Source of the DNA: an uncultured Thalassotalea sp.
GTDB taxonomy: Bacteria > Pseudomonadota > Gammaproteobacteria > Enterobacterales > Alteromonadaceae
Assembly: GCA_938075435.1 (NCBI GenBank)
Contig: CALJHL010000065.1
Span: forward strand, 1-38,333
Length of the DNA: 38,333 nt
Direction of reading: 5' to 3'
The translations under genes were made by a program, and so were the position numbers. The first letter of the stretch is position 1, and each line of letters starts with the position of its first letter. Positions 21,047-24,650 of this stretch are shown here, piece by piece. The notes under the pieces were generated by a model that was not told the DNA's origin, ran no database searches, and saw nothing but the letters and a program-made list of their open reading frames with translations.

Positions 21047-24028
21047 TTACAAGCTTTCTAAAAAGCTCAATATTTTTGCCCGTTCATCGCTTGTTAACGC
21101 ATTGTAGGCATCGGTAATCGCTTGTGCTTCACCGCCATGCCAACGTATCGCTTCGTCAATAGTTCGCGCCCGTCCATCATGCAAATATGCATGGTGCGGT
21201 GTACATACTTCACCGCCTTCTGCCCCCGTTGGGTTGATTACACCACCCGTTACACACGCAGCTAAGCCAAGACCCCATAAGGGCGTGGTGCGCCATTCGC
21301 TGCCGCTGGCCAATCCTTCACCTAAGGTATCTGCAAGCCCTTCTCCCATATCGTGCAAGAGCATATCTGAATACGGGTGAATGGTTTGGTTACGAACTTC
21401 CGCCAGAGGATGGAACTCACTGGTTTGGAACGTTTCGGTGTGGCAGTCAACACAGCCAATGTTTCTGAATAGTGAAGCACCGGCAAGCACTTCTTGATCT
21501 TCTAAACCAGTTTTCCAAACCCGCTGAGGTCGTACACCAAGGGTGGAGATATAAGTGATCAGATTATTTAAATTTTCCTCAGACATCAATGGGTTGCTAC
21601 CACCACAATTTTCTTGGGCCGAACCACAATCAAGATTTGGCAGCACCGAGGTACGGACCCCAATATCGGTATTTAGCGCTGCGGCCACCTGATGGCGCAC
21701 GCTAATTGTGCTGGCTTTCCAACCAAAACGACCGAGATTAGTTACGGCACCGTTTTCTGGATTTACGGTTTTATTTGCCACACCCGAAATTCCGTTGCCA
21801 TCGGCATCCGTAGGATCTTCTAACGCAAGTATAGCGGTTTCTGGAATTGCATCGAGCAATCCCAAACCGACTAGGCGTGGCGCAATACGAGCCGAAAATG
21901 TGGCTGGCGTTGCTTCGCTAAATCGATAATTAGGTATACGTAAACCGTCAGCTAGTTCGGTCCAGGATGCTATAGAAATATGACCCTCACCGCCACTGCC
22001 ATTCGGCTGTAATACTCGACCAATTGCTGGGTCGGGATTACCGTTTGCATCGCCTACTTTGAATACCCAGCGATCCAGTAAATCACCATTCTCGGCAACT
22101 GGTGCGCCACCATTACGCTCGTGACAATCGGTACAACGTTCGTTTACATAACGCACTGCAGACAGACCAACGTTATCTGCAAATATACCGTTATCCGGAT
22201 CTTCGTCGTGAGTACCGTCAACAAATGACGAGTGGTGAACGCGACGACCTAATAAAAACGTCTGGCCATTGTCGTAGCCTAGGTTAGTGGCCATTTGCAT
22301 GAAGTGGTCATTCGGTTCATTGGTATATTGGTAGTGCAAGCTAGTCGCGCCACCTGACCAATATTCTTGGGGTATTTTAGCGCTGTCTTCGCGGTACGTG
22401 CTGCCGGCTGCTTCTGCATACCAAGGCACAATGCCTTCACCAACAATATAAAGGTAAGTCGTACCATAGTAGTTGGCTTGGCCGCGCGGTATACCTGATG
22501 CGCTGAACTGGCTGATTTCAAATTCCATTTTGTCACCAATTCGAATTTCTCGACCGAGACGGGTGTTTTCATTACTGATTTTTTGGTACTTGTAGTAAGT
22601 GCCATCAAAACCAATATAGTTCATGGTGCCATTACTCGCGTATTGTGCGACGGTGGTAATACCTTGATACCACCAACGGTTTTCAGCTTCTATATCGCTT
22701 AGCGGGAAAATGGTGCGTACATTCATTTCAATGGTGTCACCGCCTTTGGCAACGTAATCGATAATTTCAATGTTACTTGAGCGATTCTCGAAATAAAATT
22801 TAACGTAATGGTCATAAGATTGAAACTCATCTTCACGAGCGTGACGGGTACGCGGTCGATCAGAAAAACGGGTGACTAAGGCATCATCTGTTTCAAATTG
22901 ACTGTCCGGTTCAAGTAAGGTTGTTTCATCGTATAGCGTGCTTATATTCCCCAGCACACCATAAGGCACGAGCCACCAGGTACCACCGGCGCCATCGCCA
23001 TTGGTGTCACCGGCATTGATATCACCAACATAAAAATACAATGGACGGCCATTATGAGCCGCTTGGATAAGACCATCCGCGCGTACGATAGTAGTTAAGC
23101 CATTGACGCCAGATGCGACTGAGTCTGCTACTAAAACTGGCGGCCAAGTTATTGCACAGCCGTCATTACAGACACTGCTTTCGGGGGCAGCTAAATCGTT
23201 ATCAAATACATAAAGAGAAAAGCCAGGAAAGGCGGAGTTAGGGCCGCCAGTTAGGCGTTCATTGGCGAATGATACTTCGGTATCTACAGAAATAATTTCG
23301 CAACCATTAGTATCGACAATCGCACCCTCAGCAGTGTTTGGGCATTGATCGACAGAATCGGCAACACCATCTGCATCGTCATCGGAATCTGGGGTAAATT
23401 CAATCCAGTTAATGTTAAAATCGTTGCCGGTTACATCCAAACGCAAGGTCTGGACGGTTGGATCTTGAGCAACGACGATGGTGCCGATAGTGTGCGTTTC
23501 GAATGCTTGCCAGCCGCCGGTGCCGACGCTATCGGTGCCTATTAATATGCCATCAAGTTTTAGGGTATAACGACCGCTAGATACTTGTGAGGCAACACGT
23601 GTGGTCACTGAATACAAACCAGCGCTTAAATTCACTTGATACTCAAGCCACTCACCTGCCACAGTCCAACCAACATTGCGGCCGCCGCCAACATCTGTGG
23701 TGTTTTCGATATCAACATTGTCACCATTGCCGCTACCACCGTTATCACCGGCATCGGAGTCACTGAACCTTAGATAGTCTTCAGCTTCAACTTTTACACT
23801 TTCAGCTGGAGTAGGCGTCGGAGTCGGAATTGGAGCCGGAGTCGGAGTAGGCGTCGGAGCTGGAGTAGGCGTCGGAGCCGGAGTTGGAGCCGGAGTTGGG
23901 GCCGGAGTTGGGGCCGGAGTTGGGGCCGGAGTAGCAGGTGGCGTGCTTTCACCAGACCCGCCACCGCAGGCACTTAAGCTTGTGGCGGCAACCAAACACA
24001 GCGCCAAAATATATTTATTGGAATTCAT
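21047..24028 (-). CDS. Multidomain di-haem lipoprotein: lipobox, Pro/Thr repeat linker, CBM6-like, COG4315-like repeat, C-terminal di-haem oxidoreductase (DHOR/MauG-like)
   Basis: 993 aa; TSLSACGGG lipobox; [21 protein letters not shown]...[30 protein letters not shown] (CBM6-like); [30 protein letters not shown] (COG4315-like); CTDCH and CVDCH haem c sites; [22 protein letters not shown]. Confidence 0.88.
23812..23937 (-). repeat. Minisatellite encoding the (T-P-A-P)n linker
   Basis: Tandem GGAGT(T/C)GG(A/G)GC(C/T)-type 6/12-bp units; translates to [18 protein letters not shown]. Confidence 0.92.
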
Positions 24029-24143: not shown

Positions 24144-24650
24144 TTAGGTTTTTCCTTTGTATTGGGACCGCTCCCAGAGAATATATCTGATAATGTCTTT
24201 AACTGCAAGTAAATTTGTAAATGTACCTTCTATCTTGGCGCGGGTTGTAACAATACATTTGTTGGTTGATACCGGTGCAGGTTGATAAATCACCGTCTGT
24301 TTTTTGTATGCGGATAACGCTGATGTATAGGTTTTCAATAAATTTTTATACATTGCTAAGGTAAAGCTCTGGCGCTGTTGTTTTGATGATTTTTTTAGAT
24401 TTTTACCCAGTATTTTGAACGAGACATACCGGTGATCAATGTGTGGCATCAGTTCTTGTTATACAAGGGTTCGCATAACGCTTTTGTCGTTACGTTGTTG
24501 GTCAGATAAATTAGCAATTTTGCGAAACAAATTTTTGGTAATATCTTCGATTAATACATAAGGAGATTGTTCTTGTGCAGCAGTAATAGCAGGTAAAAAA
24601 AGACCGAGTATTAACAAGGGTAAAATCATAGTTACTTTAATTGCAGTCAT
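24144..24650 (-). pseudogene. mlaC: MlaC/Ttg2D-like ABC transporter auxiliary protein with in-frame ochre stop
   Basis: ORFs 24459..24650 and 24144..24449 are in one frame separated by TAA (24459-24461): SDQQRNDKSVMRTLV*QELMPHIDHRYVSFKILGKNLKKSSKQQRQSFTLAMYKNLLKTYTSALSAYKKQ resembles MlaC; C-terminus short. Confidence 0.7.

Follow-up and report, generated by a model that had tools for sequence, protein, structure and literature searches.

Several described systems come close to the protein presented here. RoxA and RoxB are bCcP-like di-haem oxygenases which cleave an extracellular polymer at their N-terminal haem (PMC6311187, PMC6797691), and Cbp2D is a CBM-cytochrome, the X183 domain of which can slowly reduce an LPMO (PMC8981238, PMC10916295). 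Among hydrolases, GH81 enzymes are helped by CBM6 and CBM56 to hydrolyse insoluble curdlan (PMC9609564). Laminarin itself is a major molecule of the marine carbon cycle (PMC7104365). A polysaccharide-targeted haem redox protein is as such a known kind of protein; for the variant described here, several lines of evidence support beta-1,3-glucan as the substrate.

The window, i.e. the whole stretch of 38,333 nucleotides from an uncultured Thalassotalea sp. that was analysed, carries on its minus strand the multidomain open reading frame reported in a preliminary description of this DNA. The frame proved to be real and showed the following features:

21047..24028, minus strand: whole open reading frame of the DHOR-core lipoprotein, 993 aa, intact from ATG to stop
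23966..24028, minus strand: signal peptide with lipobox LSAC; the acylated Cys is aa 21, with Gly at +2 (from sequence)
23804..23944, minus strand: Pro/Thr-rich stalk, about aa 29-75 (from sequence)
23390..23773, minus strand: CBM6 module, aa 86-213 (PF03422, 1.5e-18; PDB CBM6 matches)
23279..23389, minus strand: TSP3-like Asp-rich linker, probably Ca-binding, aa 214-250 (PF02412 below threshold here, strong in relatives)
22961..23275, minus strand: COG4315 / PF03640 repeat pair, aa 252-356 (PF03640, 4.3e-17; partial match to NF040526)
22349..22948, minus strand: beta-sandwich domain, aa 361-560, kept across the whole clade (alignments and models; no PDB or Pfam match)
21050..22348, minus strand: DHOR di-haem domain in its full length, aa 561-993 (Pfam covers only the C-terminal two thirds)
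22202..22249, minus strand: clade-specific motif GRRxxHx7HxE (His599, His607, Glu609), absent from ordinary DHORs
22121..22135, minus strand: first CXXCH, aa 632-636 (from sequence)
21440..21454, minus strand: second CXXCH, aa 859-863 (from sequence)
21167..21187, minus strand: MauG-type motif YLHDGRA, aa 948-954 (profile alignment to bCcP/MauG)
21128..21142, minus strand: WHGGE, aa 963-967, with invariant His964 (sequence comparison)

The lipobox, the Thr/Pro linker, the CBM6-like and COG4315-like blocks and the YLHDGRA...WHGGEA ending, all named in the preliminary description, were recovered, the ending being conserved in relatives. Pfam assigned CBM6 (PF03422) to aa 102-212 with 67.7 bits (cut-off 28.9) and PF03640 'Lipoprotein_15', i.e. 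COG4315, to two stretches with 61.8 bits (cut-off 24.4). The stretch described as TSP3-like is indeed Asp-rich, but its PF02412 score in the window protein is sub-threshold (16.3 versus a cut-off of 25), while relatives exceed the cut-off with up to 74 bits. Both CXXCH sites exist, the first of them one base away from the position reported before (22121-22135 instead of 22122-22136), and their number is exactly two in the window protein as well as in the full-length relatives examined. Upstream of the gene, a minus-strand open reading frame of 101 aa (window 24144-24449) matches the middle of MlaC and is truncated or has an unusual start. Two surface proteins of 717-725 aa from related genomes (L095:18-2171 and L097:240-2417) also contain a COG4315 pair similar to the one in the window protein, amid what appear by eye to be fasciclin (FAS1) repeats. 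As COG4315 sits in such fasciclin-repeat proteins without a redox domain, we rejected it as a dedicated haem-partner module.

An alignment with 35 relatives revealed unbroken conservation from about aa 361 to 993, and aa 561-993 align with ordinary DHORs over their whole length, also in the segment that precedes haem 1. We therefore regard the beta domain together with the DHOR domain as the functional unit, designated here as the core (aa 361-993). Pfam recognises DHOR (PF06537) at aa 712-993 with 205.5 bits (cut-off 22), which corresponds to profile positions 213-499 only. The central beta-rich region, which the preliminary description could not assign, is a real domain of about 200 aa, for which structural models predict a beta-sandwich fold. 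A Pfam scan of the window protein gave no match for this domain, its profile found only chance interleukin-1 matches in the PDB, and neither whole-core nor domain-only models produced a Foldseek match at E<=0.001. Weak Foldseek matches to CBM21/CBM34-like, CuZn-SOD-chaperone and NEAT folds were not trusted. Structure prediction, proposed earlier as a means to locate the haem ligands, delivered the beta-sandwich but leaves the ligands as candidates, because AlphaFold models some parts of the haem region with low confidence only.

When a tree was built from 56 core proteins together with 15 ordinary DHORs from related genomes, the core proteins formed a single clade apart from the ordinary DHORs (support 100/100, stem length 0.96). 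Core proteins and ordinary DHOR / DUF1111 (PF06537) proteins have in common the full di-haem domain and the motifs LLHDMG, EWRT.PLWG, LHDGRA and WHGGE, whereas the additional beta-sandwich, the carbohydrate modules and the motif GRRxxHx7HxE before haem 1 distinguish the core proteins. This motif, located about 23-33 residues ahead of the first CXXCH, is nearly invariant inside the clade, while in ordinary DHORs its three marked positions are mostly occupied by R/E, A/S and T. If the clade has an active-site feature of its own, this motif appears to be the best candidate. The CXXCH sites and the catalytic-type residues His892, Trp912, His950 and His964 are invariant or nearly so in the 56 sequences. 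Comparison of sampled ordinary DHORs with CCP_MauG proteins by hhalign (97.5%) indicated homology of the C-terminal haem domain of DHOR to bCcP/MauG, with LHDG aligned to MHxG. A His/Met axial ligand deduced from bCcP was considered and dropped, as the Met of the motif is not the listed axial ligand in RoxB (PMC6311187). Public records label such genes only as 'di-heme oxidoredictase family protein' or 'thiol oxidoreductase'.

RoxA/RoxB and FadCcp, too, are secreted, belong to the bCcP kind of di-haem enzymes and have a MauG-type motif, and they provide a precedent for extracellular polymer cleavage; however, a direct sequence relation was undetectable at the thresholds used, and their substrates are polyisoprene or fatty acid. 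Proteins of the Cbp2D / TERTU_3803 type (X158, X183, X132) resemble the window family as extracellular multi-domain proteins with carbohydrate-binding and c-haem parts. They combine CBMs with single-haem X183 or X132 domains (in Cbp2D additionally with the YceI-like X158), whereas the window family has one di-haem DHOR unit together with CBM6, CBM56 or GH16. An X183 domain did not occur among the PDB matches. The GH81-CBM6-CBM56 laminarinase BH026 (PMC9609564) shares with core relatives the combination of CBM6 and CBM56 for insoluble beta-1,3-glucan, but has a hydrolase where these relatives have the di-haem core.

Besides the window's own genome, the beta domain was detected in 2 genomes of a class-wide sample (369 genomes) and in 9 of a phylum-wide sample (399), the latter including distant branches with lectin modules, F5/8C modules or none. 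Plasmid records contained four long matches. Three of them come from a distant branch with an identity of about 37%, and the one of these that was inspected carries ricin-type lectin repeats. The fourth is encoded by plasmid pPBSW1 of Pseudoalteromonas sp. Bsw20308 (L102:12589-16968) and unites GH16, CBM6, CBM56 and the core in a single chain of 1459 aa. The adjoining gene (L102:17474-19651) encodes a discoidin/alginate-lyase-2 protein. Teredinibacter sp. ISS155 shows an unusual expansion with at least seven core loci (L029-L031, L043, L046, L047, L049) which differ in their binding modules. In Paraglaciecola sp. MB-3u-78, a 343-aa DHOR-core paralogue lacking part of DHOR (L013:7383-8414) lies directly upstream of the full-length gene and is probably a decaying duplicate. 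A member from another class of the same phylum (L088:967-3270) consists of lipobox, COG4315 pair and core only, without a CBM. The open-access papers that were searched did not describe the architecture.

The N-terminal modules ahead of the core swap freely among relatives and comprise CBM6, CBM56, GH16, F5/8C, PA14 and CBM5/12-like modules, most of which seem to point one way, to beta-1,3-glucan. Among the 39 loci that have long flanks (L013-L051), 26 carry GH16, either fused to the core or encoded at a distance of up to about 8 kb, with the catalytic EXDXXE intact in each case. On the same chain as the core, GH16 was found in fifteen loci (Gilvimarinus, Exilibacterium, Teredinibacter and Rheinheimera) and in the Pseudoalteromonas protein; EXDXXE is intact in all fused loci but L007, which is cut by the locus end. 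For the fused and neighbouring GH16s tested, the closest solved structures are laminarinases or endo-1,3-beta-glucanases, and on account of these matches an agarase or carrageenase context was rejected. Other neighbours of core genes in relatives encode GH3, TonB receptors, MFS_2 sugar transporters and tryptophan-halogenase-like proteins, which together with GH16 are the usual content of laminarin-type loci, and two loci (L099, L100) show the gene order GH16, TonB receptor, ..., core gene. Out of 61 related genomes, five have a CBM56 that scores above its cut-off, four times inside a core gene and once in a GH81 beta-1,3-glucanase; CBM6 of the window type also rides on GH16 enzymes. Given that the CBM6 and CBM56 pairing is known for insoluble beta-1,3-glucan in GH81 enzymes, our guess is that the target may be an insoluble or recalcitrant glucan.

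In one and the same genome set, 8 of 11 core genes had GH16 fused to them or at most 12 kb away, whereas none of the 13 genes for ordinary DHORs did (p = 2e-4, several of the species being close kin). Four of the eight GH16-linked core genes come from one genus and the effective number is thus smaller; the other four, along with the Microbulbifer, Gilvimarinus, Colwellia and Exilibacterium loci, represent separate lineages. A role of the family in beta-1,3-glucan use appears well supported by these genomic data. The co-occurrence of CBMs and GH16 is evidence for targeting and not for sugar oxidation.

The branch of the window copy also holds proteins from Colwellia echini, C. piezophila and Colwellia sp. 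12G3, the genes for which lie near GH16 (L014, L015, L019). Over the DHOR part, the window copy is 80% identical to the C. piezophila protein. The earlier remark that no CAZyme gene lies beside it holds for this contig, where none was found among the scanned neighbours within 38 kb, but not for the family, since GH16 is fused or adjacent in most relatives. A close Paraglaciecola homologue (75% identity) has no GH16 within 8 kb either. The window's own draft genome contains this DHOR only and four GH16 hits, all on other contigs. The glucan link of the window copy therefore rests on kinship and on its CBM6, the specificity of which is not settled by sequence; the most likely substrate of the protein is beta-1,3-glucan.

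Our best explanation, in which we place about even confidence, is that the window protein is a surface di-haem oxidase or oxygenase of a gammaproteobacterial clade dedicated to beta-1,3-glucan (laminarin and insoluble relatives) and working with laminarinases. The di-haem core can share one chain with a glucan hydrolase and glucan-binding modules, which favours action on the glucan itself; direct oxidation therefore takes the first rank, followed by electron transfer and then by peroxidase or protective roles. Direct glucan oxidation would follow the model of RoxA and similar di-haem polymer oxygenases. The protein would be tied to the outer membrane and stand on its flexible stalk, and CBM6 (in relatives CBM6, CBM56 and GH16) would keep it on the glucan. 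The N-terminal haem, with proximal His636 and a pocket that may include His599, His607 and Glu609, would activate O2 or H2O2; electrons would be relayed by the C-terminal haem, in the way known from RoxA or bCcP. This would oxidise the glucan, or something attached to it, and loosen it for hydrolysis by GH16 and GH3 and for TonB-dependent uptake. Tentatively, one can go further and speculate that the core represents a novel class of c-type di-haem enzymes which directly oxidise, and perhaps cleave, beta-1,3-glucan, i.e. a haem counterpart of LPMOs for laminarin- and curdlan-type glucans with the beta-sandwich as part of the substrate site.

Electron delivery in the manner of Cbp2D, where the haems would pass electrons on to a partner such as an LPMO or a different extracellular oxidase, or take them up from it, and the CBM would serve co-localisation only, seems rather unlikely to us. 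The combination of CBM and c-haem does resemble Cbp2D, whose X183 can reduce an LPMO (PMC8981238, PMC10916295), and an AA10 gene is present in four of ten core-bearing relatives. This frequency is not significantly different from the 8/50 it was compared with (p = 0.10), and the missing X183 match among the PDB hits might also speak against such a role. No AA10 LPMO was found in the window's own draft genome (78% complete) or in six of the ten core-bearing relative genomes, five of these six being 99-100% complete. An AA10 partner is therefore not obligatory, and the LPMO-like role suggested in the preliminary description is weakened as far as it would require electron delivery to an LPMO; room is left for other redox partners. 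Moreover, the GH16, CBM56 and GH81 context points to beta-1,3-glucan, which to our knowledge is no known AA10 substrate.

That the protein is a peroxidase or a thiol/iron-redox enzyme, which protects the cell or deals at the surface of algae with phenolics or iron, and is only positioned by its glucan modules, we regard as improbable. The label 'putative peroxidase' for DHOR, its bCcP-like character and the occurrence of COG4315 modules in fasciclin-type surface proteins without a redox domain agree with this idea, which however leaves the fusion to laminarinase and beta-1,3-glucan modules and the laminarin-type loci unexplained. A non-catalytic glucan-binding surface protein or sensor with a structural di-haem part is very improbable, as CBMs and stalk would be enough for adhesion but the CXXCH sites and the four residues His892, Trp912, His950 and His964 are so strictly kept.

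The broader proposal of the preliminary description, a surface-anchored di-haem redox protein which docks on polysaccharide and participates in its breakdown, is supported by these comparisons: its CBM6 and COG4315 modules were matched, and the open-access papers searched assign no other function to the architecture. The clade to which the window protein belongs is probably an unrecognised family of redox enzymes for beta-1,3-glucan breakdown. As far as we know, the known breakdown of laminarin is hydrolytic. If the direct oxidation favoured here is true, a conserved haem enzyme in or beside the laminarinases of many marine bacteria would add an oxidative step which is missed by current CAZyme annotation.
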